Assembly: GCA_038868975.1 (NCBI GenBank)
Contig: JAWCSA010000004.1
Coordinates: 1 to 37,868, forward strand
Reading direction: 5' to 3'
DNA: 37,868 bases
From: Nitrososphaerales archaeon
GTDB lineage: Archaea; Thermoproteota; Nitrososphaeria; Nitrososphaerales; UBA213
The translations under genes were made by a program, and so were the position numbers. The notes under the pieces were generated by a model that ran no database searches, was not told the origin of the DNA, and was given only the letters and a program-made list of their open reading frames with translations. Of the stretch, positions 23,175 to 36,765 are shown piece after piece (the stretch's first letter is position 1; the number at the start of each line of letters is the position of its first letter).

Positions 23175-23807
23175 TCACATACTGGATTTTTCTCCGCTCA
23201 CGATATACTTTACTAGATCGCTTATGTACACAGCATGATCCGCTATTCTTTCAAGGTAACGCAGAATAAGCGCCGCTGAAATTGCACATTTGATCTCTAT
23301 CTCTCCTTCAAGAATTCTTTTTATATTCTGCCTATAAAATGAATCAACAATATCATCGGCTTGTCGAAGTTCTTCAGCAACATTCGCATCTCTCTCGTTA
23401 AATGCTTTGATGCTATCACGTATCATCTTCTTCACTTCATCAGCAGTATTAGCAACCATCGAATGGTCACAATCAGAAAGTTTTCCAAACTGATCCCTCA
23501 CCTGTGCTATATCATATGCATACCTGCCAAACCGTGCAAAACCATAAGATATTTCCATACATGCCTTGATGAACCTTAGATCTGCAGCAACAGGTTGATA
23601 TCGTACGAGTAATTCAACAGCAAGATCGCTTACCTCTTCTTGCAACATAATGAGCTCATTGGATTGATTGGATATAGTTGTTACAACATTTTTATCGGAC
23701 AAATATGCTTCAATCGCCACACTCACAGAATTCTCTGAGAGTTCAGCCATGTCCTGCATCAAATTGGTCAGTTTGCTCAGTCCTAGGTCCATTAACCTAC
23801 GTACCAA
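23175..23807 (-). CDS. phoU: PhoU-family phosphate transport regulator
   Basis: This is a helical cytoplasmic protein of 210 residues with two PhoU repeats. Signatures are VSDLAVELLVRYQPVAADLRFIKA and, in the second half, ILRYLERIADHAVYISDLV, the metal-binding E/D-xxxD pattern of the family. PhoU proteins restrain the Pst transporter when phosphate is plentiful. It is the last gene of the pstSCAB-phoU operon, 16 bases after pstB. A second, larger PhoU-domain protein with an AbrB head is encoded divergently at the other end of the operon. Confidence 0.92.
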   Translation of the reverse strand: MVRRLMDLGLSKLTNLMQDMAELSENSVSVAIEAYLSDKNVVTTISNQSNELIMLQEEVSDLAVELLVRYQPVAADLRFIKACMEISYGFARFGRYAYDIAQVRDQFGKLSDCDHSMVANTADEVKKMIRDSIKAFNERDANVAEELRQADDIVDSFYRQNIKRILEGEIEIKCAISAALILRYLERIADHAVYISDLVKYIVSGEKSSM

Positions 23808-23823
23808 AATGTTTTACCACCGA

Positions 23824-24657
23824 TCAACCAAACCTTCCACTTATGTAATCCTCGGTAAGTTTTTCAGTCGGATTCTCAAAGATCTGTTTTGTCGGCCCAA
23901 ATTCAACAAGTTTTCCAAGGTAAATGAATGCCGTGTAATCGGATACCCTTGCGGCTTGTTGCATGTTGTGAGTTACTATTACTATCGTATAATCCTGTTT
24001 CAATCTATCTATCAACTGTTCAATCTTTGCAGTTGATATCGGATCCAATGCGGAGGCAGGTTCATCCATGCACAAAACTTCAGGTTCAGTTGCTAACGCC
24101 CTAGCAATACACAACCTCTGTTGCTGTCCGCCAGAAAGACTTACCCCTGGTCTGTCAAGCTCGTCTTTCACTTCATCCCATAATGCTGCCATCTCAAGAC
24201 ATCGTTTAACAATCGCGTCAAGCGTATGCCTGTTTCGCACACCGTTAAGCTTCATGCCTGCTGCAACATTGTCGTATACGCTCATTGTTGGGAATGGATT
24301 TGGCTTCTGGAAGACCATTCCGATCTTTCTTCTTACTAAAATAGGGTTCACACCATTTTCATAGATATTTAGACCATCCAGCATTAACTTACCACTTGTT
24401 GTAGCTCCATGAATTAATTCATGCAATCTATTGAAGCATCTGATAAGAGTTGTTTTGCCGCAGCCAGAAGGTCCTATTATTGCTGTCACCGAATTAGTCT
24501 TTATCTTCATGCTTATGTCCTTTATAGCCGGTTTTCCACTATAGTATGCGCTAAAGTCTTCCAAGATCAGTTTGTATTTACCCAGAGCTAACTCGGCACT
24601 CAGGCCCTTATCTGGAATAGTCTTGATTGTTATTTTCTCATCTCCTAACAAGTACAA
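23824..24657 (-). CDS. pstB: Phosphate ABC transporter ATP-binding protein
   Basis: This is the ATPase of the high-affinity phosphate importer, 277 residues. Walker A is GPSGCGKTT (62-70), the Q-loop FQKPNPFP, the ABC signature LSGGQQQRL (171-179), Walker [13 protein letters not shown] and the switch histidine in [22 protein letters not shown] and [18 protein letters not shown] are specific to PstB. The first 25 residues precede the ABC fold and overlap the end of pstA by 20 bases, so a slightly later start is possible. Confidence 0.96.
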
Positions 24658-25540
24658 ACAACCTCCTACCAGTTAAAATTCGTACGCCTACATTGAGGCT
24701 TAGTACTATTAATATGAGAATTAATGCCGCACCCCATCCATCCAAGCGCGCGTAATCATACGGCAGTAACGAAAGTCTCCATATCCTTAACGGAAGAGCG
24801 TCCAATGGTTTATCAAATCCTTGGAAAAATAGACTACTTCCAAGGATCGTTAGTATCAAGGGAGCTGTTTCGCCTGCAATTCTTGCAACCGCTAGCATCA
24901 CACCCGTTACTAATCCACCCTTGGCACTAGCCAACAAAACGCTAAATGTTGATCTCCATTGAGGTACCCCTAAGGCAAGAGCCGCTTCTCGTATAGTTTG
25001 AGGTACTAGTTTTAATGCCTCTTCAGTCGTGCGGGCCACTATTGGGAGCATGATTATCGATAAGGCAAATGCTCCTGCCCAGACGGAAAAAGAGCCAATT
25101 ACAAGCACAATAAGCATAAAAGCAAAGATTCCTACGACGATGGATGGAAATTCCGTTAACACATCATTGAAGAATCTTACAGTCTTTGCGAACTTGTTAT
25201 TTCCAAACTCAGAAAGGTAAATACCCATCAACACACCTGCAGGAACTCCAAGTAGCGAGCCTAATCCTATAAGTATTAAGGTGCCTTGAATTGCTGGTGC
25301 TATACCTCCTTCTGCTTCTCCAACAGCGCCAGGTGGTTCTGTTAGGAATGCTAGATCTATCGCAGCTGCCCCATTCTTGAATACTTCAACAAGAATGCTT
25401 CCTAATGGTATTATTGCTATTACCACACAACCAAGGGCAGCTGTTCTGAAGATCTTATCAACAAGTAATCTTTGCTTTAGATTTTTTCCCAGTTCCAGTA
25501 CTCTGGTTGATTTCACCTGCATTATTTCTGTCTCGCTCAT
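24638..25540 (-). CDS. pstA: Phosphate ABC transporter permease
   Basis: This is the second membrane permease of the Pst complex, 300 residues and six predicted helices. The family segments [14 protein letters not shown] and [25 protein letters not shown] are present; the latter is the EAA-type loop that docks on Pst[37 protein letters not shown] is the typical first pair of helices (shown here only as landmarks). It overlaps the pstC stop by four bases. Confidence 0.95.
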
Positions 25541-26532
25541 TCTACACTCCCCTTTGTCTTAACCATTCTTGAAATCATCAGCGTGGCAATCACGTTGATA
25601 GCCATTGCCACGGTGAACAGCACCAACCCGACTCCAATAAGTGCAGCTGGGTGCAAAGAGAACGGATCAGCCTCATTAAACTCATTGGCAATGATACTTG
25701 CCATCGTCTGCCCTGGTTCAAGCAATGAGAACGGTAAGGCCTTTTCACCTACCACATTGCCGATAACCATCGTAACAGCCATAGTTTCTCCTACAGCCCT
25801 TCCCAGACCAAGTATAGTTGCTCCAAAGATACCTGACTTTGCATAGGGAATTACGGCTCGCCTGAACACTTCCCATTTTGTAGCACCAATTGCATACGCA
25901 GCTTCTCTCTGTGCGTTCGGAACTGCCATAAAGACCTCCCTTGAAACAGCAGACACCGTAGGTATGATCATTATTGCCAGTATTACACCTGCTGTAAGAA
26001 CATTAAGACCCAAAGGAGTACCGGAACTGGAAAAGATTGGTATAAATCCTAAATGTGTTGCCAATGGAGCTTCTATGTAGTCCTTCAACCAGAATCTAAG
26101 TACAAAGAGGCCCCAAAGTCCATAAATTACACTTGGGACAGCTGCAAGGAGCTCTACTAAGAAGGAAAGAGTTGTTCGAACATGTTTATGGGCCATCTCC
26201 ACCAAGTACATCGCTATACCAATGCTAACTGGAACACCAAGCACTATTGCAATTGCTGATGTAACCAATGTACCCAGTATGTAAGGAAGCACGCCGTATA
26301 CTTCCCTACCTTGAACCGGATTCCATTCACTACCTATTAAAAAGTCAAAACCAAATCTGCTTAAAGCAGGCTCTGCACCTATTGTTATTTCTATAACCAT
26401 TAGAGCAATAACTAGCAGAAGGTAAGCAGAAGCGCCAGCTGTAATCCACTTGAAGATACCATCAAAATTGAAAAATTTCTTACGCGACTTTACTTCAATA
26501 CTAGGTTTGGCATTGTAAAAAATGTTGATCAT
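25537..26532 (-). CDS. pstC: Phosphate ABC transporter permease
   Basis: This is the first permease of Pst, 331 residues. Landmarks are SEWNPVQGREVYGVLPYILG, AAVPSVIYGLWGLF, the coupling loop VPNAQREAAYAIGATKWEVF and AVGETMAVTMVIGNV. An N-terminal polar stretch precedes the first helix. It lies 14 bases downstream of pstS and overlaps pstA. Confidence 0.95.
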   Translation of the reverse strand: MINIFYNAKPSIEVKSRKKFFNFDGIFKWITAGASAYLLLVIALMVIEITIGAEPALSRFGFDFLIGSEWNPVQGREVYGVLPYILGTLVTSAIAIVLGVPVSIGIAMYLVEMAHKHVRTTLSFLVELLAAVPSVIYGLWGLFVLRFWLKDYIEAPLATHLGFIPIFSSSGTPLGLNVLTAGVILAIMIIPTVSAVSREVFMAVPNAQREAAYAIGATKWEVFRRAVIPYAKSGIFGATILGLGRAVGETMAVTMVIGNVVGEKALPFSLLEPGQTMASIIANEFNEADPFSLHPAALIGVGLVLFTVAMAINVIATLMISRMVKTKGSVE

Positions 26533-26546
26533 ACCAGTTCACTTGC

Positions 26547-28052
26547 CTAGGCTGGTATGTTAAGTGATTTTCCTTGGAATGTTAACTTCCTGATGGCTTC
26601 TTCATTCATCTGTGTTACTTCATCTGGCAATGGCACATAGTGCAGATTTGGAGAATATTGCTGTCCATCATGCACAGCCCACCATAGAAAGTCTATCAAT
26701 GCCTGAGCCTTGTCCTGCGTCATGCCTGGTATGTCACCGAGCTCGTGGTATAGAAGTAGGTATGTAAAACTCGAGATCGGATAAGATCCTTTGCCTGGCG
26801 CATTAACTATACTAACCTTAGACCAATCTTCCCATGGTTTTGGTAGTTTCTGTGCAGCAAATCCTGCAGCGGCCTTCGTTGATTCCAGTGATGGAAGTAC
26901 AAATTCACCTTCTCTGTTCTGTATCGCTGCAACCGACATACCAGTTTGTTCTGCATATGCCAGTTCAACATATCCTACCGAATATTTGGTGCTTCTCACA
27001 ACACCTGCTACTCCCTCATTGCCTGCTGCTCCAACGCCTGTTGGCCACGGAACCGCCTTATCCCTTCCAACCTTCTCCTCCCATTCGTGACTTACAGTAG
27101 ATAGGTAGTCAGTGAATACGTATGTTGTTCCAGAACCATCGGATCTATGTGCAACTATTATATTCTCATCTGGCAAAAGAAGACTAGGATTTAGTGCCGC
27201 TATTCTAACGTCATTCCATTTCCTTATTTTACCCAAAAATATGTCTGCGACAATATCTGGTGTCATCTTCAGTCCAGAACTTATGGGTTTGCCATCCAGT
27301 CCTGGAAGGTTGTATGTAACCGTGACTGCACCTATAGTTTCTGGTATGTGTATCGGATTCTTCAATGTTCTGAATTGTTCTGTGGTCAACGGTGCGTCAG
27401 ACGCGCCAAAGTCAACAGTCTTGGATATGAACTGCTTTACACCTCCGCCGCTTCCTATAGATTGATAATTAACATCGACCATAGGATGTACCTTATTAAA
27501 CTCGGTTCTCCACTTGTCAATGAGCGGAAATGGAAAAGTTGCTCCTGCGCCATTAAGCGTTACCTTGCTGGAAAGTATCGATGGTTTGAATTTTCCACTC
27601 TTTTCTCCTTGCTTCGGTGCAGGCTTTTCAGGTTCCTGTAACGCATTCTTTGACTCCATCATGGTTCCTGCTAGAACCTTGCCACCAGCACCAAGTGCAC
27701 TCCATGCATATGGTGATTCCTTATTGTTAACTATCAGAATCGTTATCATGCTTCTTCCTACTTCGAGCGGTTTACTGCTGCTTAACGTGATAGTATCCTG
27801 GTCTACTCTCTCCCTATCCCAGCCTCTGGCCTTGGCGAATTTTATACCATCATCAAAAGATATCTTGACGGCATAGACAGGCTCATTGCCGTTGTTCTTT
27901 ACTGATAGAAGCGTTACTGTTTTTTTATGCTTCATTGCTACAGAAATATTATCTGTTTGTTGTGCCAGCGCAGGTGCCGCTACCATAGTAACGACCATGC
28001 TTAGAACCAATGCTAGCATCATTCCTCTGAAAATTTCATTTTGTACGGTCAT
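26547..28052 (-). CDS. pstS: Phosphate-binding protein with an extra N-terminal domain
   Basis: This is the secreted, membrane-proximal phosphate receptor of the Pst importer, 501 residues, well above the usual 320-380. A signal peptide (residues 1-30, ending APALAQQ) is followed by a beta-rich domain of about 100 residues (34-135: SVAMKHKKTVTLLSVKNNGN onward), then a Pro/Lys-rich linker (about 137-160). The periplasmic-binding fold starts at 162 with LNGAGATFPFPLIDKW. The phosphate pocket segments YQSIGSGGGVKQFISKTVDF, GASDAPLT and HRSDGSGTTYVFTDYLS are intact. TATA-like CTTATACAC lies at 28073-28080 on this strand, about 25 bases before the ATG, and GATCTATA words lie just upstream. Confidence 0.94.
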   Translation of the reverse strand: MTVQNEIFRGMMLALVLSMVVTMVAAPALAQQTDNISVAMKHKKTVTLLSVKNNGNEPVYAVKISFDDGIKFAKARGWDRERVDQDTITLSSSKPLEVGRSMITILIVNNKESPYAWSALGAGGKVLAGTMMESKNALQEPEKPAPKQGEKSGKFKPSILSSKVTLNGAGATFPFPLIDKWRTEFNKVHPMVDVNYQSIGSGGGVKQFISKTVDFGASDAPLTTEQFRTLKNPIHIPETIGAVTVTYNLPGLDGKPISSGLKMTPDIVADIFLGKIRKWNDVRIAALNPSLLLPDENIIVAHRSDGSGTTYVFTDYLSTVSHEWEEKVGRDKAVPWPTGVGAAGNEGVAGVVRSTKYSVGYVELAYAEQTGMSVAAIQNREGEFVLPSLESTKAAAGFAAQKLPKPWEDWSKVSIVNAPGKGSYPISSFTYLLLYHELGDIPGMTQDKAQALIDFLWWAVHDGQQYSPNLHYVPLPDEVTQMNEEAIRKLTFQGKSLNIPA

Positions 28053-28158
28053 GAGATTTGTTCAAAAATCAGTGTATAAGTGAATAATGCAAGCGAATCA
28101 TATAGTCTTATAGATCAATATAGATCTATATAGAATATGGTCAAAACATGTTTAAAGC
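28053..28158. promoter_or_regulatory. Divergent pstS / AbrB-PhoU promoter with a 14-bp palindrome
   Basis: The spacer contains the perfect palindrome ATATAGATCTATAT at 28118-28131, preceded ten bases away by another TATAGATC (28110-28116 region). On the minus strand this gives GATCTATATT and GATCTATAAG in tandem upstream of the pstS TATA box. On the plus strand the CTATATAG part (28126-28133) sits where the TATA box of the divergent regulator should be, 26-33 bases before its ATG. A bound protein could therefore control both genes. The same GATCTATAT word occurs between the two protease/secreted-protein pairs further right. Confidence 0.6.
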
Positions 28159-29220
28159 ATGTTACACGATGTAGAAACATTGTCTGTATTTGCAGAAAAG
28201 AAAGAGGTAAGGAAAATACAATTTACAGGTAGATCGACCTACATTTTGTCTTTGCCCAAGAAATGGATTGAAGAAATGAACCTTCAACCTGGCGACCCTG
28301 TTACAATAGTCAGACAGATCAATAATTCACTTTTGATCTTACCCAATATAGTAGCGAAATCGTCAAAAACAGGAGAGGCTACAGTTATAGTCACATCCAA
28401 CGAAAGTGGCAACTCGTTGAAAAGAATGATAATCTCCATCTATCTAGCTGGTTACAATGTAATACATGTGAAAAGCAAAGCAGGACGTATATCACCACAG
28501 CATAAGGATGCTATCAGGCAGGTTGTAAGGAGAAACCTTGTTGGAACAGAAATAGTGGCTGATTCTGACTACACCACAATACAGGTTCTAATGAGTTTGC
28601 CAGAATTGTCCATAGGCAGTGCGTTGAGAAGAATGTTTCTTATCGCTTCGACCATGCACAGGGATGCCATCAATGCTCTGAAGGAATTGAATCTAGATCT
28701 TGCCGACGGTGTGATAAAGTCCGATGACGAAGTAGATCGCTTCAGTCTTTATATAATGCGAAATCTGGTTATAGCATCTCAGAATGAGAGAGTGCTCAGA
28801 GAGGTGGGGTTGAAGAACCCTTCAGATTGTCTAAGTTATAGGGTTGCAGTTAAAAGCGTAGAAAGAATTGCCGATCACGCCTCTTCTATCGCGGAAAAGG
28901 TGAAGGAAATAAAGGAAAAGCCAAATGCAAAGCTAATACAAAAGATAACTGATATGAGTAATTACTCATTGTCAGTCTTCGAGGATGCAGTTGAATCTTT
29001 ATTGAGGCGTGATTACGCACTTGCTGATAAGGTTGCAGAGAAAGCAATTAGCATTAGGAATTTGGAACAAGAAACGCTTGCCATATTATCGAGGAGTCAT
29101 GATAATACAGCAGGAAATTACAAATTGATTTTGGAGGATATTAGAAGGGTTGCAGAGTATTCAAGTGATATCGGAGAAGCTGCGATGAACCAAACGATAG
29201 AAGAAGTAATAACAGTTTAA
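28159..29220 (+). CDS. AbrB-domain PhoU-like phosphate regulator
   Basis: This 353-residue protein joins a SpoVT/AbrB DNA-binding head (about 16-62: VRKIQFTGRSTYILSLPKKW then LQPGDPVTIVRQINNSLLIL) to a PhoU-like helical body (about 70-350) with VERIADHASSIAEKVKEIKE and VAEYSSDIGEAAMN, two metal-binding PhoU repeats. Archaea lack the PhoR/PhoB pair, and AbrB-PhoU fusions are the likely phosphate-responsive transcription regulators. It is divergent from pstS and shares its operator region, so autoregulation and control of pst are plausible inferences. Start ATG 28159, with TATA-like CTATATAGAAT at 28126-28136. Confidence 0.85.
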   Translation: MLHDVETLSVFAEKKEVRKIQFTGRSTYILSLPKKWIEEMNLQPGDPVTIVRQINNSLLILPNIVAKSSKTGEATVIVTSNESGNSLKRMIISIYLAGYNVIHVKSKAGRISPQHKDAIRQVVRRNLVGTEIVADSDYTTIQVLMSLPELSIGSALRRMFLIASTMHRDAINALKELNLDLADGVIKSDDEVDRFSLYIMRNLVIASQNERVLREVGLKNPSDCLSYRVAVKSVERIADHASSIAEKVKEIKEKPNAKLIQKITDMSNYSLSVFEDAVESLLRRDYALADKVAEKAISIRNLEQETLAILSRSHDNTAGNYKLILEDIRRVAEYSSDIGEAAMNQTIEEVITV

Positions 29221-29304
29221 TCCATGGTTGATTGCTGACATATGATCTAAATGATAACCATATTTCACATACAATATTGATAAATAATCTATTCACCGTA
29301 TTAG

Positions 29305-29396
29305 ATTGTAACGGGCTACAACGAGTACCCATTAGCATACCTCCAGAAACCCGTTATTCCCGCGACAGTTGTCAGCTCTGTTTTGGAGCTGACACA
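29305..29396 (+). ncRNA. Possible structured RNA or 3' terminator region
   Basis: The 247-base convergent gap after the AbrB-PhoU gene contains a 9-bp perfect hairpin, TGTCAGCTC (29371-29379) and GAGCTGACA (29387-29395), with a 7-base loop. Just upstream, TAACGGG (29309-29315) can pair with CCCGTTA (29351-29357). Both have higher GC content than the AT-rich flanks. This may be a bidirectional terminator of the two convergent genes or a small RNA. There is no long T tract, so the call is tentative. Confidence 0.3.
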
Positions 29397-29467
29397 TATC
29401 TGCATATGATGATTGAATTACTATTTACTTTCATAGTTTTTGTTTCACTGTAGCAATTAACCAATCA

Positions 29468-30067
29468 TCAACGATACAGGCGCTGCAACGTCATTACATC
29501 AAGTTTAGAAATGCTCCTCTGTTCCTCATTCTTTCCTATATACTTGAACATCGGATCAATCGTACCTTCTTCATTTTCATTCGCATGACCAAGACCTATA
29601 GCATGTCCTATTTCATGTAATATAATATTGTAAAACATAGTATCACTCATCTTGTTGAATTCTATCTCCTCTGAATTACGTTCTGCTATATGGACAGGAA
29701 TTGTAATAGATACTTTATTTATGCTGGAACCTGACCAGTCAGCGAGAATATCGCTCTTGGCCAGTACGCCTGCGTTCTCTTCATCAAGATATCTATCAAT
29801 TATCCTGATATGTATATCCCATTTCTGCGTAAAATTAGTGTAGACAATGTACCGAAGCTTTGGGAAACCTTCATGCCACGCATCGAGAGCTTCAATTGTA
29901 TAGTCCGTATATATCTCCTCCTGTGAATTATCAATCCAGACAACGATCTGTTCCTTTCTCCACTTGCATGCACAGTCAAGAAATGCAATATTGGTGGCAT
30001 AACCATACACGTAGAGTGGTATAAGATTAATACATGCAATCGCTATGACCGCGAGCGTTCTAAGCAT
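29468..30067 (-). CDS. Secreted matrixin-like zinc metalloprotease, copy 1
   Basis: This is a 199-residue protein with an N-terminal signal peptide (hydrophobic to about residue 22). It has the metzincin zinc motif LHEIGHAIGLGHANE: H151, H155 and H161 bind zinc and E152 is catalytic. The Met-turn IDPMF (M173) and the C-terminal helix DVMTLQRLYR follow, as in matrixins. A conserved D-C-x-C-K-W near the mature N-terminus (C32, C34) is shared with copy 2 at 34048-34659. It is probably exported or cell-surface bound. It is divergent from a large secreted protein, with a GATCTATAT motif between them, and converges with the AbrB-PhoU gene. Confidence 0.8.
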   Translation of the reverse strand: MLRTLAVIAIACINLIPLYVYGYATNIAFLDCACKWRKEQIVVWIDNSQEEIYTDYTIEALDAWHEGFPKLRYIVYTNFTQKWDIHIRIIDRYLDEENAGVLAKSDILADWSGSSINKVSITIPVHIAERNSEEIEFNKMSDTMFYNIILHEIGHAIGLGHANENEEGTIDPMFKYIGKNEEQRSISKLDVMTLQRLYR

Positions 30068-30223
30068 GGCGCTCTAAACGCATCTGCGGTACATCAGTTA
30101 AGGAACAGGGTTAAATAGGATGAATAAGCAAATTAACAAAAACAAACCGATCTATATCAACTATATAGTGATAGTGATTCATTTTTAGCAAGCTTATTAA
30201 TATACACATATTCACTAAACTCA
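30068..30223. promoter_or_regulatory. Divergent promoter of protease copy 1 and secreted protein, with a GATCTATAT motif
   Basis: GATCTATATC at 30150-30159 is followed immediately by AACTATATAG (30160-30168 region), a ten-base spacing like that of the tandem words at pstS. For the plus-strand gene, TTAATATAC near 30197-30205 sits about 25 bases before ATG 30224 and is the probable TATA box, so the motif lies upstream of it. For the minus-strand protease, CCTATTTAA near 30108-30116 is a possible TATA box. A shared operator is inferred. Confidence 0.5.
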
Positions 30224-31321
30224 ATGAATAAACAAACGACAATGCTGGCTTCAATAGCTGTGGTAAGTGTGGTCGCAACGATGCTTGTGCTATCTGGAGT
30301 TATTACCGCCAACGCTGCTACGAGAGAGAGATCAGCTGTTACCTATACGGTACCTCCGGTCTCTCCTGCAAGTGGAGAGGCCGGAAAGATAATGGTTCAA
30401 ATTGACAGCCCATTCGGTCAGGAAGTTATCAGTTCCTTCAAAGTATTCCAAACAGACAATCTTATGAAGCAAAGCGGCTACTATACATTAAGACTTCAGG
30501 GTCCAGTGGTGGAGGATAAGAGAACGTTGCTACATTGGGTAGCAAATGATCTGGGAAACATGCCTGATGGCCTAGCAGCTGATTCTATAGCTGTAGGGGG
30601 AGGCAAGCCGCAAAAGATGACAAAACCAAAGGAAGGTACTACTGTTACCAAGATCCCGTTGACGGGCAAGGTGGCGGTGCAACTGCTGGAAGGAACGCAG
30701 GACATGTATGCAACTCAAAAGATTCGCAACATTGAATTTTCAGGGTGTCATATAGCCGGATACCACCTGGGTACGCTCGTTGAAGACGAAAAACCATATT
30801 TTAAAGATGGTTTTCAGTACTACGAGGAGGTCGTTTTTGCTTGCACCAGTATAAGAGATCTCAAGAATACTAGCACCGAAAACATAAGGGGAGTATTCGT
30901 CCAGACAGCCATTAACAATGATAACAGGCAGATAACGAATGAAAAGGGTGAGTTGATCATTAGCTCTAGGGAATACAGACAACCTATAGTGCTTGAGAGC
31001 AAGAAAGTAGAGGAATTAAAGAATGTAAAGAAGGAGATAGTAACGAGGTTGGAATTGGACAAAACATACTACAAGATTGGAGACATGGCAGTCTTTAAAG
31101 TTACATTCACTGATGTTGAAGGTAATGCTGTAGATCCTGACACGATAAGAGCTGTGTATGATGGAAAGATGGTAGGGTTAGAGAAGCAAGATGCTGGCGT
31201 ATACACCTTCACTACACCTGGTCTGACTAAGGATCATCACCAACTGATAGTCAGTGTTGATAAAGGCGGGTTCCCCACAGACACCACATACCTGTCGATA
31301 CCAACAAGTCGCATCAGCTAA
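30224..31321 (+). CDS. Large secreted protein with a C-terminal Ig-like domain
   Basis: This 365-residue protein has a strong signal peptide (ASIAVVSVVATMLVLSGVI, cleavage near ANA at about residue 31). The mature N-terminal 240 residues are beta-rich and unrecognised, with two cysteines (in FSGCHIAGYH and VVFACTSIRD) that could form a disulfide. The last 90 residues (from about LELDKTYYKIGDMAVFKVTF to YLSIPTS) look like a bacterial Ig-like or macroglobulin-type beta-sandwich. A central segment encoded by 30560-30653 is duplicated exactly on the minus strand at 33191-33284. It is divergent from protease copy 1 and followed by an IS66 element 40 bases downstream. A cell-surface or matrix role is inferred. 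Confidence 0.75.
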   Translation: MNKQTTMLASIAVVSVVATMLVLSGVITANAATRERSAVTYTVPPVSPASGEAGKIMVQIDSPFGQEVISSFKVFQTDNLMKQSGYYTLRLQGPVVEDKRTLLHWVANDLGNMPDGLAADSIAVGGGKPQKMTKPKEGTTVTKIPLTGKVAVQLLEGTQDMYATQKIRNIEFSGCHIAGYHLGTLVEDEKPYFKDGFQYYEEVVFACTSIRDLKNTSTENIRGVFVQTAINNDNRQITNEKGELIISSREYRQPIVLESKKVEELKNVKKEIVTRLELDKTYYKIGDMAVFKVTFTDVEGNAVDPDTIRAVYDGKMVGLEKQDAGVYTFTTPGLTKDHHQLIVSVDKGGFPTDTTYLSIPTSRIS

Positions 31322-31352
31322 GGAACCCCATTTCTATTTATTTTTTAAAGCT

Positions 31353-32799
31353 ATTACTGAAAAATATATTGTACGTATTTAGGTCCTTCCTGAGAATCGA
31401 AACGATCAGATCGCCCTTCTTGTGATAGTATGATGTGGGCAAGCATAAGCATTGTGAACACTACATCCACGAACACAAAGAGAACATCAGACTCTGGCAC
31501 ATAATACAGCAGATATCTACAGAGAATATCGCACTTAAGAAGAGGCTGCAGTATTACGAGAATCCAAACTCACCACCATCAGCAAACTCGCTGTTATGGA
31601 AGAAGATGAAGAGGGAAAAGAAGGAGAAGAAGAATAAAGATAGCCGTGAACCAAGGAAGCCTGGAAGGAAGAATGGTCATAAGGGAGTATCGCACTCATT
31701 CAAACCAACCCAGACAATTGAACATACGTTGGATAGATGCAACAATTGTGGCTCACCAGATATTACTTTCTCCCATCATGATAATAGAACAATTGTTGAT
31801 ATCCCAGAGCCTGAACCATACACAGTAACACTTCATAAGGTAAGCATCTATAATTGCAATAGGTGTGGCTCAGAGATAAAACCTGTTGTTGGTATTCCAG
31901 AGCAGGGGATGCCTGGGAAGAACCTGTTAGCAATGATATCTTCTCTATGGCATGTAAGGCTAACTATAGGGAAGATACAATCGATGCTAGAAGCTATCTA
32001 TGGATTAAGGTTATCAACAGCAACCATACAGAATGCTCTGCTCAATGTGTCTTCTTCATTACAGAGGTTCGCTGATAGAGTAAGGAGCAATATCAACAGG
32101 TCAAAATGTGCTGGATTTGATGAGTGGGATATCTATAAATGGTAAGAGGGGATGGGTATGGTGTGCAGTATCTGGAAAGAATGCATTCATAACTGTAGAG
32201 AAAAGCAGGGGAGCTGATGTTATAGAGAAATATTTTCATAATTTTCATGGTGTAGCAATAGTTGATGGATGGAAGGCATACAATATTTTTGATGAGCAGC
32301 AGAGGTGCTGGGCCCACATAATCAGGGAAGCAGATACATTAGCATTAAGAACGAAGAGCTCTAAAGCTAAAGAGCTGGCAGAATACATTAGAAATCTCTA
32401 CCATCATGTGAAATCTGAACTGAAGGAGCATCCTCCTCCTGATATCACACTATACAGGAGTGCAAGGATCAAGCTTGGCATCATACTATCCAGAGCAGGA
32501 AGGTGCAGGGATAAGGATGTAAGGAAGTTTGTGGAGAAGGTGAAGAGCGCCAGCAGTAAGCTCTTCACATTCATAATGCATTATATAGACTCAACGAACA
32601 ATGATTGTGAGAGGGTATTGAGGGAAGCGATTATTCATCGCAAGGTAAGAGGACTGTTGAGGAATGGTAAGGGCATGAGTATATTTGGAAATATAATGAC
32701 GGCATTTATGACGTGGAAGCGGAGAGGATTGAACCCATTAGAAGAAATGAAAAAATACTTGTGAACAGGCTAAATACGTACAATATATTTATTACTGAA
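31353..32799 (+). mobile_element. IS66-family insertion sequence with 21-bp inverted ends and target duplication
   Basis: The element spans 31362-32790. Its ends are perfect 21-bp inverted repeats (31362-31382 and 32770-32790), beginning AAATATATTGTACG. Directly outside lies a duplicated ATTACTGAA (31353-31361 and 32791-32799), an 8-9 bp target duplication as expected for IS66 (usually 8). The target DNA to the right continues AAATATATT like the IS end itself, so 19 bases starting TATTACTGAA are directly repeated at 31352-31370 and 32790-32808. It carries a single transposase gene and no tnpA or tnpB accessory genes. Confidence 0.85.
31435..32764 (+). pseudogene. IS66-family transposase, frameshifted at the first catalytic motif
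   Basis: The N-terminal piece (GTG 31435 to 32145) holds a leucine-rich coiled-coil start, a very Lys-rich linker and the zinc-finger pair CNNCGS and CNRCGS typical of IS66 TnpC, then LLAMISSLWHVRLTIGKIQ. It reaches the first catalytic aspartate as GFDE. The chain then continues in the next frame as GISINGKRGWVWCAVSGKNA with VDGWKAYN (second D) and NNDCERVLREAIIHRKVRG (E) to 32764. The frame change is at about 32125, inside the family DET motif: one base remains where a threonine codon is expected, so two bases seem lost. The joined length of about 440 residues is normal. It is probably inactive unless frameshifting restores it. Confidence 0.85.
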
Positions 32800-32816
32800 A
32801 AATATATTATGTTTGA

Positions 32817-32939
32817 TTATGCAAGAACTTTACATTCACATCCAGAACAGACATGGAAGTTCATGCAACACCTACATTCAGTTTCCACACATTCATCCAT
32901 AGAATGGTGTTCGCACATGCCGCAATCACAGTGTGTCAT
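32817..32939 (-). CDS. Small Cys-rich protein, probable metal binder
   Basis: A 40-residue frame from ATG 32939 reads MTHCDCGMCEHHSMDECVET, then ECRCCMNFHVCSGCECKVLA. Ten cysteines are arranged as CxCxxC, C, CxCC, CxxCxC with adjacent histidines, which points to a zinc or iron-binding microprotein. The TATA-like TTATAAAAT lies about 25 bases before this ATG and fits a leaderless start; upstream in-frame ATG codons (with a repeated ATGAAATGACA) are less likely. It ends 18 bases from the IS66 target duplication. The family was not recognised with certainty, but the composition is very unlike a chance frame. Confidence 0.55.
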   Translation of the reverse strand: MTHCDCGMCEHHSMDECVETECRCCMNFHVCSGCECKVLA

Positions 32940-33357
32940 TTCATTATATGTCATTTCATTAATTTTATAACATGATCGTATGTTAAGCCTTGTCAACATG
33001 AATATCGTATGCTATATAGCGCCGACTGGAACTATATTGCTAAAGTAGTTCATATTCACACTCCTTAATAGCACACAATTCCATATGAAATTCACCATGT
33101 AGTCTTTCCCAGACCTTTCTACATGGAATGGGGGCACGTTTCATGGCGGTTATTACACCCCCGAAACGTACCCTATCAAATTAAGATGATTCTTGGTAAC
33201 AGTAGTACCTTCCTTTGGTTTTGTCATCTTTTGCGGCTTGCCTCCCCCTACAGCTATAGAATCAGCTGCTAGGCCATCAGGCATTTTTCTAGGATCTATA
33301 TTGTATAAATGATTCACTTTACACATGCTTTTGTACAATTTGCATATTATAACTCAT
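32940..33357. other. Spacer with inverted gene fragment and hairpins
   Basis: This 418-base stretch contains no long gene. It holds an 8-bp inverted repeat (CCATGTAG at 33095-33102, CTACATGG at 33119-33126), a second pairing ACGTTTC (33137-33143) with GAAACGT (33163-33169) flanked by G5 and C5 runs that could form a pseudoknot, and the 94-bp copy of secreted-protein DNA described separately. GATCTATAT lies at 33293-33301. Confidence 0.5.
33153..33284 (-). pseudogene. Exact 94-bp inverted copy of an internal piece of the secreted-protein gene
   Basis: Bases 33191-33284, read on the minus strand, are identical to 30560-30653 inside the large secreted-protein gene. The match begins exactly at an ATG that is internal in the parent gene and here opens a 43-codon frame (MPDGLAADSIAVGGGKPQKM, then TKPKEGTTVTK in the copied part, then NHLNLIGYVSGV in unique sequence to the TAA at 33153). 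A TATA-like ATTTATACA lies at 33302-33310 on this strand, about 22 bases before the ATG. It may be a dead fragment, a source of a small peptide or RNA, or an amplification or assembly chimera. Perfect identity argues for a recent origin. Confidence 0.6.
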
Positions 33358-33528
33358 ATGCAAAGCATACACAATGCGAGGGTTAAGAAATCAATTAATT
33401 TCAATTTCTGTCCATCCTGCTACTGGTCTGCCACATCTTATAACGCGCCTTTAAGTAAATGCCCGCAGTGCAGTTATAAAACATATAGAAAGAGAATTAA
33501 CTTGGAAATAAGAGAAATATCACTTTAA
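33358..33528 (+). CDS. Small zinc-ribbon protein
   Basis: From ATG 33358 this encodes 56 residues: a basic N-terminus (MQSIHNARVKKSINFNF), then CPSCYWSATSYNAPLSKCPQC, slightly more than one zinc ribbon with two CPxC pairs 15 residues apart, and a basic tail YKTYRKRINLEIREISL. Such small archaeal zinc ribbons often bind nucleic acid, but nothing specific can be assigned. The frame is open further upstream to 33325, but 33358 keeps the basic start compact. A 6-bp hairpin (GCTCTT/AAGAGC, 33560-33579) follows and may be part of its 3' end. Confidence 0.5.
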   Translation: MQSIHNARVKKSINFNFCPSCYWSATSYNAPLSKCPQCSYKTYRKRINLEIREISL

Positions 33529-34047
33529 ATTTGAATCAAATTTCTGGAATGAGTCTAGGGCTCTTCATTTCGAAAGAGCGGTGAAGGTAGAATCAAAAGG
33601 AAATGATGCAAATCATATCCTTAATGCACGCGCATGAAAGCAAGAGAGGGGGATGGGTACAATATAAAGAGCCATAGATAAGAACGGTATATCATTGCTG
33701 ATACAAATACAAATGTTCCATGACAATGCAAGTGCTAACGTGAAATCCTTATCGATCTTTACAATATCATTACATGATTTCATGAGATTCGATGTTCGTA
33801 TAAAAATGATGCCTTGCAGTTTTCCTAAATTCATCTATCTAAAACTAGCTACAATTGTAACCATTTTGTCGCTGAATATTAATGTGAATAGGAAGTTAAT
33901 GTGATTGGGATGATAGTTAAGTTATGCCACTTATATTTGACTATACCCCTAGCAGCGTTCACATATGTGCAAAATTCTTACTGGTGTGAGTATAGAATAA
34001 TTGACATGTATAATGGAATTATATGCATATATTCTTACACTAGAAAA
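33529..34047. other. Gene-poor spacer with a third G-rich repeat unit
   Basis: I see no convincing gene in these 520 bases; short frames on both strands lack motifs and coding bias. The stretch holds the hairpin at 33560-33579 and a repeat unit beginning CGCATGAAAGCAAGAGAGGG at 33631, closely like the units at 20541 and 20593. Confidence 0.45.
33631..33675 (+). repeat. Third copy of the G-rich CGCATGAAAG repeat
   Basis: CGCATGAAAGCAAGAGAGGG followed by GGATGGGTACAATATAAAG matches unit one at 20541 (shared CGCATGAAAG, G-run and ATATAAAG) and unit two at 20593 (shared AAGCAAGA). The three units lie in gene-free DNA about 13 kb apart. The role is unknown. Confidence 0.4.
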
Positions 34048-34659
34048 CTATTCGTACAAACGTTCCAGTGCAAGTACGTCTAATCCTGATACTTCCCTTG
34101 CATTCTCATCTAGATATAATGCGTGATGCATGGGATCGATGGGTTCTTTCTTGTTATCAACAGCATGGCCGAGTCCTAGGGCATGTCCAAATTCGTGCAG
34201 TATCATATTGTAGAACACCGTATCATCAATCTTGCTCATAGAACCATACACGTTTCTATACTGGGTTGGCACATCTATCGTCACCTTTATCAACTCATCA
34301 CTATTAGGTTTCTTGGTATTTGTAGCAAACCCTATTGTTTCCTTTGGTAATCCTATGGCGTTGCCATATGTTTTATGTATTGTTATCACAATATCATAAT
34401 CGCTGGGATGCAGCGTATTAATCTCGTACGAAAGTTTCTCAAAGTTAGTTTCCCATTCACCTATAGCATTAACAACCACTTCTGTATACTTGAATTCCGA
34501 TCTGTTATCTATCCATACAACAAGATCGGACTTATGCCACTTGCATTTACAGTCAGACAATCCTATTTCGCTTGCATACCCATGTGCTACCATTGGATAC
34601 AACAACATTGTTGCAATAGACAATGTTAATGACAGAAAAATAGATTGGCTGTTTAACAT
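34048..34659 (-). CDS. Secreted matrixin-like zinc metalloprotease, copy 2
   Basis: This is a 203-residue paralog of the protease at 29468-30067. It has a signal peptide (SLTLSIATMLLYPMVAHG), the shared near-N-terminal D-C-x-C-K-W (C37, C39) and LVVWIDN, the zinc motif LHEFGHALGLGHAVD (H155, E156, H159, H165), the Met-turn IDPMH (M177) and a C-terminal DVLALERLYE. The two proteins are clearly related along their length but well diverged, so the duplication is old. It is divergent from a 178-residue secreted protein with a GATCTATAT motif between, repeating the layout of copy 1. Confidence 0.8.
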   Translation of the reverse strand: MLNSQSIFLSLTLSIATMLLYPMVAHGYASEIGLSDCKCKWHKSDLVVWIDNRSEFKYTEVVVNAIGEWETNFEKLSYEINTLHPSDYDIVITIHKTYGNAIGLPKETIGFATNTKKPNSDELIKVTIDVPTQYRNVYGSMSKIDDTVFYNMILHEFGHALGLGHAVDNKKEPIDPMHHALYLDENAREVSGLDVLALERLYE

Positions 34660-34778
34660 TAACTCTTATGCAAACAGTTGCTATAAGAATATTCTGCTTA
34701 AAGTTAAAAGTGGAATGATTTAGTTAATATGATCTATATAGAATAAGCTCAAATACATTGATAAAATGACTATCTCCA
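34660..34778. promoter_or_regulatory. Divergent promoter of protease copy 2 and secreted protein, with a GATCTATAT motif
   Basis: AATATGATCTATATAGAATA at 34727-34746 matches the pst spacer (28117-28136) except for one missing base, and the following GCTCAAATAC resembles GGTCAAAAC there. It lies 38-50 bases before ATG 34779 and about 70 bases before the protease ATG. A TATA-like CTTATAGC near 34683-34690 suits the minus-strand gene. A shared regulator with pst is inferred. Confidence 0.55.
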
Positions 34779-35315
34779 ATGAATTCAATTTCGAATAGTT
34801 CATGGAAATTTGCCGTAGCTGCATTTGCATTTCTAAACCTTCTGCTAATAATCCCGGCAAATAGTTTTGCGATAAAGGACAAACTTGATTCTACTGTAGG
34901 AAATACTTTGGTGATAGATGGTAGAGGCCCATCTACTCATTCTTCCACTACAATATTCACGTTCATGGCTAGCGGGCTGTGCTCGAAGACAACAGAACAG
35001 TGTATGGAGATCAACGGAAAGGGAAAAGTTCGCTTTAACGATGAACTAAGGGCAAGTGGGCAGTTCATCAAATATAAGGAGGGAGGACAATTCAGGGCAC
35101 CTTCATACTATACTTGGCAAGCAACAGAGTTGGTAAATGCGAATGCGATACACGTGCATTTCAAAGCAGTTACTGGCCTTGGTAACATAAATATCGCATT
35201 GACGGAGGGCAAAGAACCAACTTCGGGACTGGTATGCATCTGGGGCAATCTTGAGGGTTTACTTGGGCCTAATGAGGTTCTGTGCACTAATAAAGTTGTC
35301 ATATACATCACATAA
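34779..35315 (+). CDS. Secreted protein of unknown function
   Basis: This is a 178-residue protein with a signal peptide (FAVAAFAFLNLLLIIPANSF, cleavage near residue 31). The mature part is beta-rich, with four cysteines (GLCSKTTEQCMEI, GLVCIWG and EVLCTNKV) that could form two disulfides outside the cell. I do not recognise the family. It has no clear similarity to the 365-residue secreted protein that occupies the matching place next to protease copy 1, although the arrangement is the same. It could be a substrate, inhibitor or partner of the neighbouring protease; that is inference from position only. Confidence 0.65.
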   Translation: MNSISNSSWKFAVAAFAFLNLLLIIPANSFAIKDKLDSTVGNTLVIDGRGPSTHSSTTIFTFMASGLCSKTTEQCMEINGKGKVRFNDELRASGQFIKYKEGGQFRAPSYYTWQATELVNANAIHVHFKAVTGLGNINIALTEGKEPTSGLVCIWGNLEGLLGPNEVLCTNKVVIYIT

Positions 35316-35353: not shown

Positions 35354-35659
35354 CTAGCAGCAACAAGAATCGTTGCACATGAAAACGATCTTCTTACTTG
35401 CGGATTCTATATCAGAGATCAGACGAGACACCTCTTTGTTGGAAATAGTATACATAGTCTTCTTACCACTTTCTCTTGCTTTGATGATACCACAGTTTCT
35501 TAATGCGCGAAGGTGGTGTGAGATTAATGGCTGATCTTTCTTTAACTTTGTTACAAGGTCATTCACAGATAGTTCCTTATCCTTGATCAATCCCAATATA
35601 TGTAGTCTAGTCTCGTCGCTTATACACTTCAACAATGTGAGTTCATTCATATCAATCAA
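35354..35659 (-). CDS. arsR: ArsR-family metalloregulatory repressor with a C-terminal Cys cluster
   Basis: This is a winged-helix ArsR/SmtB repressor of 101 residues. The DNA-binding part is KCISDETRLHILGLI, ELSVNDLVTKLKKDQPLISH and HLRALRNCGIIKARESGKKT. The classic arsenic site in the third helix (ELCVCDL) is absent: here it is ELSVNDL. Instead the last residues are CNDSCCC, so arsenite probably binds at this C-terminal cluster, together with C84-region residues of the partner subunit; relatives with C-terminal sites are known. Start TTG 35659 or ATG 35650. The TATA-like TATATAAAAC at 35677-35686 fits the TTG. It is divergent from arsC. Confidence 0.85.
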   Translation of the reverse strand: MIDMNELTLLKCISDETRLHILGLIKDKELSVNDLVTKLKKDQPLISHHLRALRNCGIIKARESGKKTMYTISNKEVSRLISDIESASKKIVFMCNDSCCC

Positions 35660-35692
35660 GATTTATATAAATCCAGTTTTATATATACCTTC
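35660..35692. promoter_or_regulatory. Divergent ars promoter with ArsR-operator-like palindrome
   Basis: The perfect 14-bp palindrome GATTTATATAAATC occupies 35660-35673. Its centre, ATTTATATAA (35661-35670), is placed 23-32 bases before the arsC ATG, where the TATA box belongs. The TATA-like sequence for arsR on the minus strand lies at 35677-35686. A repressor bound to the palindrome would block TBP on arsC and sit at the arsR start, a compact autoregulatory switch. Confidence 0.6.
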
Positions 35693-36100
35693 ATGTCGAA
35701 GATGGTCCTTTTTTTATGTGTTCAGAATGCTGCAAGAAGCCAGATGGCAGAGGGATTCTTCAGAAAATATGCTAGAAATATACGATGTATGAGTGCTGGA
35801 ACTTTACCGGCGGACAAGGTAAATCCTAACGCCGTGACTGTTATGAAAGAAGTTGGCATAGATATTAGTGCTAGTCAACCAAAGGTTGTTAGCAATGAAA
35901 TGCTGCAGCATTCAACAATAATCATCAACATGGGATGTATGGAGAACAACTTTTGTCCATCAGTGCTCTTGAAGGACAAGATTCTGGAGGATTGGGATAT
36001 AGAAGATCCTGCAGGTAAGTCAATAGAGAAGGTGAGAGAAATTAGAGATCAGATAGAAACCAAAGTGGTGAACTTGATACGGCAACTATCAGGAAATTGA
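35693..36100 (+). CDS. arsC: Thioredoxin-type arsenate reductase
   Basis: This enzyme reduces arsenate to arsenite using the low-molecular-weight tyrosine phosphatase fold. It has 135 residues. The P-loop is CVQNAARSQMAEG (C9, CX5R-S). The two relay cysteines of the pI258-type family are present in the right places (C82 and C88 in GCMENNFCPS), and the general acid loop is DWDIEDPAGKS. It is leaderless or nearly so from the palindrome-TATA promoter, and its stop overlaps the start of the aquaporin gene. Confidence 0.93.
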   Translation: MSKMVLFLCVQNAARSQMAEGFFRKYARNIRCMSAGTLPADKVNPNAVTVMKEVGIDISASQPKVVSNEMLQHSTIIINMGCMENNFCPSVLLKDKILEDWDIEDPAGKSIEKVREIRDQIETKVVNLIRQLSGN

Positions 36101-36765
36101 GCATATTTAAGGTTAGCACTAACCAAAAAACGTTTGTGGCAGAACTTCTCGGCACTTTTATCGTTGTTGTTTCTGCTACAGGATCGATCGTATTTGATGC
36201 AAAAATGAATGGAGCGCTGGGAATTCCATTTATAGCATTCACTCCTTTTATTGGCGTAGCAGTAGGCGTGTATGCATTTGCAAAAATATCAATGGCACAC
36301 TTCAACCCTGCTGTAAGTGTAGGTTTTTTGATTACAAGACATATTACACCTAAAATTTTATTGTATTACTTGGGTGCCGAGATTACCGGTGCCTTGCTAG
36401 GTAGTTTGTTTGTAAGACATTCCATTGGAAATTTGGCTAATCTTGGTGCAAATTATCCAAACTACTCATTTTCGATCCCAATCATATTTGCGATTGAAAT
36501 GCTTGCAACTGCGCTTCTAATGGCCGTTATTCTACTGGTTGTTCGTACTAAGGGGTTGCGCGGCCTCAGCGGACTTGCTATAGGAGGTATAGTTGGATTG
36601 GACATCTTCTTCCTGTCCTTTATTTCTGGAGCATCCATGAACCCTGCACGATCTTTAGCACCAGCACTTCTATCCGGTGTAATTGATGATCTGTGGCTAT
36701 ACTGGTCTGCCACTTTTGTTGGCGCATCCATCGTGGCATTTATCTATACAAGCAAATTCCATTAG
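36097..36765 (+). CDS. Aquaporin / glycerol-facilitator family channel, probable arsenite exit
   Basis: This is a 222-residue MIP-family channel with six predicted helices and both half-helix signatures: HFNPAVS (NPA at 70-72) and SMNPARS (NPA at 182-184), plus FVAELLGTFIVVV at the N-terminus. The arginine after the second NPA is kept. Start is TTG at 36097, overlapping the arsC TGA, so the two genes are translationally coupled. An arsC-aquaporin pair was described in Sinorhizobium (AqpS), where arsenite leaves the cell by the channel instead of a pump. Here no ArsB or Acr3 pump is adjacent, so the same role is inferred. Water or glycerol transport remains possible. Confidence 0.9.
   Translation: MSIFKVSTNQKTFVAELLGTFIVVVSATGSIVFDAKMNGALGIPFIAFTPFIGVAVGVYAFAKISMAHFNPAVSVGFLITRHITPKILLYYLGAEITGALLGSLFVRHSIGNLANLGANYPNYSFSIPIIFAIEMLATALLMAVILLVVRTKGLRGLSGLAIGGIVGLDIFFLSFISGASMNPARSLAPALLSGVIDDLWLYWSATFVGASIVAFIYTSKFH

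Follow-up and report, generated by a model that had tools for sequence, protein, structure and literature searches.

A palindromic element shared by the pst-phoU locus and two secreted-protease modules of a Nitrososphaerales archaeon: a probable phosphate-regulon operator

The 8-bp palindrome CTATATAG is found in front of the phosphate-transport genes and of two secreted-protease modules in a 37,868-nucleotide stretch of DNA (the window) from a Nitrososphaerales archaeon (assembly GCA_038868975.1, contig JAWCSA010000004.1). Each module pairs a matrixin-like secreted zinc protease with a secreted partner protein. Judged from the sequence, the palindrome, which is often arrayed at a spacing of ~10 or 21 bp, is the informative unit of the putative operator, and its occurrence upstream of both protease modules goes beyond chance. 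Its conservation and positions, together with the prediction of a weight matrix, suggest that a phosphate-regulon operator covers pst-phoU, a pit operon containing a second AbrB-PhoU gene (pit-phoU2) and the two matrixin modules; the AbrB-PhoU protein encoded beside the pst array is the likely binder. We consider this reading probable, and from the same material we infer the binder, the phosphate signal, the sign of regulation and the role of the proteases.

Recurrence and conservation of the palindrome

A weight matrix was trained only on the AbrB-PhoU promoters of other genomes and used to scan the window together with ~240 kb of this genome (278 kb in all). The three best scores were those of the pst site (22.2), the protease 2 site at 34731 (21.0) and the protease 1 site at 30161 (15.7), and the fourth-best score was 15.3. 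When each site's own intergenic region was shuffled, its score was reached by 0 of 5000, 0 of 5000 and 15 of 5000 shuffles, respectively. A matrix scan had been suggested as a check by an earlier, sequence-only reading of the window, and the foreign-trained matrix indeed ranked the pst and both protease intergenic regions highest.

Within the window, CTATATAG begins at 28126, 30161 and 34734. The 1.8-Mb genome contains 33 places in total, one of them at the second AbrB-PhoU gene, phoU2, of the pit operon, the promoter of which carries GATCTATATATTTCCTATAGACCCTATAGAATA. Three copies in the 381 bp of the pst, protease 1 and protease 2 intergenic regions correspond to a Poisson P of ~8e-7, a value that uses a rough intergenic rate for a test chosen after the data had been seen.

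Among relatives, CTATATAG was present in 17 of 25 AbrB-PhoU promoters as compared with 20 of the 199 remaining genes in those loci (Fisher 6e-10). Inspection of translations revealed that these 20 were mostly pstS, pstC, pstB or sharers of the phoU intergenic region, and the element was enriched in front of phosphate-transport genes. In a second set, composed of named contigs of other genomes (Nitrososphaeria plus a few Bathyarchaeota and Hadarchaea), it lay upstream of AbrB-PhoU in 59 of 74 non-redundant loci. Conservation of the element at AbrB-PhoU and pst promoters was borne out in the relatives. The sequence GATCTATATAGARTA gave 20 matches in 300 genomes of the order, against 5 for its control; 18 of these matches fell outside this genome, 4 of them directly upstream of AbrB-PhoU. 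An operator array of the pst/phoU type also occurs in genome G042 (locus L196) and relatives, and AATATAGATCTATATAGAATA is kept exactly in G042, yet its AbrB-PhoU is only 54% identical. The intervals between TATAG units peak at 9-10 and 19-21 bp, the periodicity that proteins lined up along one side of the helix would produce. The exact arrangement CTATATAG-N13-CTATATAG was rejected as a general signature, having been found in 121 scanned genomes only at the phoU2-type promoter of G042 and at one site of genome G086.

The boxless AbrB-PhoU promoters of five loci (L217, L218, L219, L221 and L236) have in common CAAG-rich sequences followed by ATATAT. AbrB residues covarying with loss of the box were also considered (FTGRSTY versus FSGKSSY in five boxless loci) and set aside, the comparison being confounded by ancestry. 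Full-text searching of the literature library used returned no description of CTATATAG as a phosphate box.

The sequence-only reading had assigned the operator to a different unit, the 9-base word GATCTATAT. As it had stated, the word is present at four places in the window and nowhere else therein, with five strand-specific matches against a chance expectation of 0.68 (standard deviation 0.87); none of 100 shuffles reached five. Its positions for the 28123 and 33293 copies were correct, and the other two were off by one (30149 and 34731). Genome-wide, ~46 copies were counted versus 16 for the reversed control, about half of 30 inspected copies were coding DNA, and the four places in the window represent a modest excess over the 0.96 expected from the genome rate (Poisson 0.017). 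Given that the word is not rare genome-wide and is often coding, it is weak evidence by itself, and it was ruled out as the operator word.

The copy at 33293, previously counted among the linking sites, has a broken core and a matrix score of 13.1. It forms the terminal part of a 106-nt inverted duplicate with no gene start close by and was therefore discarded as debris of the coding DNA of open reading frame 30224-31321 (partner 1). The duplicate (33191-33296, 96% identical to 30548-30653) lies in a gene-poor stretch beside an insertion sequence, a sign of local rearrangement. This IS66-family element (31352-32808) has inverted ends of 21 nt (31362-31382/32770-32790), is flanked by the direct repeat ATTACTGAA (31353-31361/32791-32799) and has a transposase split between two frames that overlap (31435-32145 and 32108-32764).

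Protease modules and a pst-linked secreted family

Both proteases contain the zinc motif HExxHxxGxxH and match Peptidase_M10 with 36.7 and 27.7 bits (Pfam cut-off, 24); they are 40-43% identical to one another. In searches that covered relatives, close homologues of the proteases were found only in this genome.

Partner 1 provides a separate connection to the pst locus. In Nitrosopumilaceae-like genomes, the genes of a secreted family sit between phoU and pstS and have CTATATAG in front of them. A wider search for this family yielded 30 loci. The palindrome accompanies 18 of these (16 of 28 distinct genes), mostly at -82 to -92, and does so inside pst loci as well as elsewhere. In three genomes (L334, L339 and L340) the pst locus has three sites, of which one precedes the secreted gene and another precedes pstS; in four others (L333 and L335-L337) the secreted gene has a site and there is no pst operon within the surrounding 11-14 kb. 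Residues 63-211 of partner 1 align with the family by hhalign (94%, E 1.5e-7), indicating a distant relationship in which the columns C-x-I-x2-Y and GF...F-x-C are kept. Given that partner 1 is a distant member, the pst locus of other genomes also includes a secreted relative of it.

This kinship covers partner 1 alone and lends no such support to partner 2 or the proteases. Partner 2 had no close homologue in the relatives searched (one weak match was seen, in the same genome), and no relation was found between it and the pst-linked family. The placement of the protease modules in the phosphate regulon, as proposed from the window, was in essence upheld by the matrix, the conservation of the element at AbrB-PhoU and pst promoters and the partner 1 family; the operator unit and the 33293 site were not.

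Members of the unnamed family (L303-L332) contain one, two or three copies of a domain that has the conserved motifs described above, and the two members tested had no Pfam or NCBIfam match. The C-terminal domain of partner 1 (residues 270-360) recurs in several proteins of this genome and of genome G001 (L095-L106). A single-sequence structure model of partner 1 was too poor for use (predicted local distance difference test score, 39).

Table 1. Positions of the pst-phoU locus, the protease modules and the sequence elements in the window
Feature	Position	Strand	Basis or remark
Short PhoU	23175-23807	-	Family match
pstB	23824-24657	-	Gene order and matches to syntenic pst loci
pstA	24638-25540	-	Gene order and matches to syntenic pst loci
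pstC	25537-26532	-	Family match
pstS, phosphate-binding protein	26547-28052	-	PBP_like_2 1.7e-40
Predicted pstS TATA box ACTTATACACT	28071-28081	-	~25 nt before pstS ATG; predicted from sequence
Putative operator array between pstS and phoU	28101-28133		TATAG units at 28101, 28109, 28119, 28129
Palindrome ATATAGATCTATAT	28118-28131		Part of pst-phoU array
Core CTATATAG of pst-phoU array	28126-28133		Sequence
Predicted phoU TATA box ATGTTTAAAG	28148-28157	+	Conserved ATGTTTA block in alignment A3
AbrB-PhoU regulator	28159-29220 (start possibly TTG 28180)	+	Pfam MazE/AbrB 1.8e-10, PhoU 2.8e-22
Protease 1, matrixin-like, secreted (HEIGHAIGLGH)	29468-30067	-	Peptidase_M10 4.9e-9; divergent from partner 1
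Putative operator of module 1 GATCTATATcaaCTATATAG	30149-30168		Core 30161-30168
Partner 1, secreted	30224-31321	+	Residues 63-211 related to pst-linked secreted family
Protease 2, matrixin-like, secreted (HEFGHALGLGH)	34048-34659	-	Peptidase_M10 2.9e-6
Putative operator of module 2 GATCTATATAGAATAAGCTCAAA	34731-34753		Core CTATATAG 34734-34741
Partner 2, small secreted protein	34779-35315	+	No family
GATCTATAT copies	28118-28126 (-)/28123-28131 (+), 30149-30157, 33293-33301 (+), 34731-34739		Sequence match
GATCTATAT copy, not operator	33293-33301	+	Edge of inverted duplicate of partner 1 coding DNA

The protease modules adjoin a group of genes (35354-36765) for an ArsR regulator, a low-molecular-weight phosphatase family protein, perhaps of the arsenate-reductase type, and a MIP channel. 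A 22-nt palindrome occurs here at 35649-35684 (ArsR gene start and gap to the next gene).

Candidate regulator and alternative explanations

The predicted model of AbrB-PhoU comprises an AbrB-like N-terminus and a PhoU bundle, and its structure matches were to the PhoU structures 1t8b and 1t72. It is conceivable, albeit unlikely, that the phosphate-regulon operator is bound by another transcription factor and that AbrB-PhoU is a mere sensor or target, as genes distant from AbrB-PhoU carry the element too. Against this, the element usually adjoins the AbrB-PhoU gene, from Nitrososphaeria to Hadarchaea and Bathyarchaeota (in part expected, given that the search used AbrB-PhoU), AbrB-PhoU has a predicted DNA-binding domain and, in haloarchaea, PhoU proteins are described as pho-box binders (PMC6560208).

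It is improbable that CTATATAG is simply the strong TATA box of these promoters. The palindrome does lie ~28-30 nt before some starts, which is the distance of a TATA box. In many orthologues, however, its position is -57 to -92, and a distinct conserved TATA-like box (CTTTAATTATA or ATGTTTA) stands closer to the gene. It is paired at a spacing of 10 or 21 bp, non-phosphate genes of the relatives' loci rarely carry it, and its count in this genome does not exceed that of its reversed control (33 versus 43). At phoU, the predicted TATA box follows the operator by ~15-25 nt and precedes a TTG codon at 28180 by ~27 nt. Given this separate downstream box, the element is not merely a TATA box. The position of the box points to TTG 28180 as the phoU start, and orthologues begin at the equivalent place.

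That the 34731 site arose recently, through local rearrangement, as a passive and unselected duplicate of the phoU promoter is equally doubtful: it is identical to the pst site at 21 of 23 ungapped bases and has the IS66 element and the 106-nt inverted duplicate nearby, but the likeness fades beyond the operator and promoter-proximal bases, the protease 1 site differs in sequence and still matches the foreign matrix, and an operator, even if copied, would put module 2 under the same control. The sequence-only reading had described this likeness from 34727 as ~20 bases with one gap; the likeness stands and the gap does not.

Several observations count against a phosphate-regulon operator bound by AbrB-PhoU. 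AT-rich palindromes such as CTATATAG resemble archaeal TATA boxes in composition, and the palindrome is lacking from 15 of the 74 AbrB-PhoU loci of relatives and from the third AbrB-PhoU gene of this genome (C25). One of the three matrixins of this genome (C3) has no site, nor do distant matrixins in relatives, and the protease 1 site combines an ideal core with weak flanks (flank score, 1.2).

Proposed regulation and its relation to known systems

On the reading that we favor, a phosphate-regulon operator recognized by AbrB-PhoU, the secreted proteases and their partners are probably co-regulated with phosphate uptake. Most likely, the AbrB-like domain would bind the CTATATAG array and the PhoU domain would read the state of phosphate or of the transporter. 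An array between divergent genes would allow both promoters to be controlled. Given that the element is upstream of the TATA box at phoU, activation is suggested, and the pst and protease modules would be induced on starvation. The proteases may then release nutrients or remodel the surface.

Such an arrangement resembles the bacterial Pho regulon (PhoR-PhoB, Pho box), in which pst, phoU and secreted nutrient-scavenging proteins are coordinated with phosphate supply. Here, by contrast, an AbrB-like DNA-binding domain is part of the PhoU protein itself, which points to a one-component route, and the box is a palindrome, whereas the PhoB box is a direct repeat. The N-terminus of AbrB-PhoU matches Pfam PF04014 of the AbrB/MazE/SpoVT family, whose targets are AT-rich; it differs in being followed, in one protein, by a middle alpha/beta domain and the PhoU bundle. 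The proteases share the zinc motif and Peptidase_M10 match of matrixins (M10) and differ from them as short archaeal secreted forms, divergent to partner genes beside a pst locus.

A precedent is the PhoU/pho-box regulation of pst operons described for Halobacterium salinarum (PMC6560208, citing Furtwangler et al. 2010), where haloarchaeal promoter boxes before pst operons are described as needed for upregulation. Both cases have archaeal PhoU-type transcription regulators and short promoter boxes before pst operons. The present one belongs to another phylum and adds secreted proteins and proteases; the likeness is one of description. As far as the literature searched shows, the system is known in kind, as archaeal PhoU with boxes, and new in the sequence of its box, in the range of taxa that have it and in its targets.

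This class includes ammonia-oxidizing archaea that abound in soils and in the ocean and whose distribution is shaped by phosphorus (PMC7490402); no account of a phosphate operator in them turned up in the library searched. We put at about even the chances of the broader proposal that AbrB-PhoU is a one-component regulator acting on CTATATAG arrays in an ancient archaeal Pho regulon (Nitrososphaeria, Hadarchaea and Bathyarchaeota), which would include the unnamed secreted family and, for scavenging or for remodelling the surface when phosphate is scarce, the secreted matrixins of this lineage. With a searchable box, the members of an unknown regulon could be listed by scanning hundreds of genomes; the box names a candidate regulator and would give a starting point for studying secreted proteins whose function is unknown.

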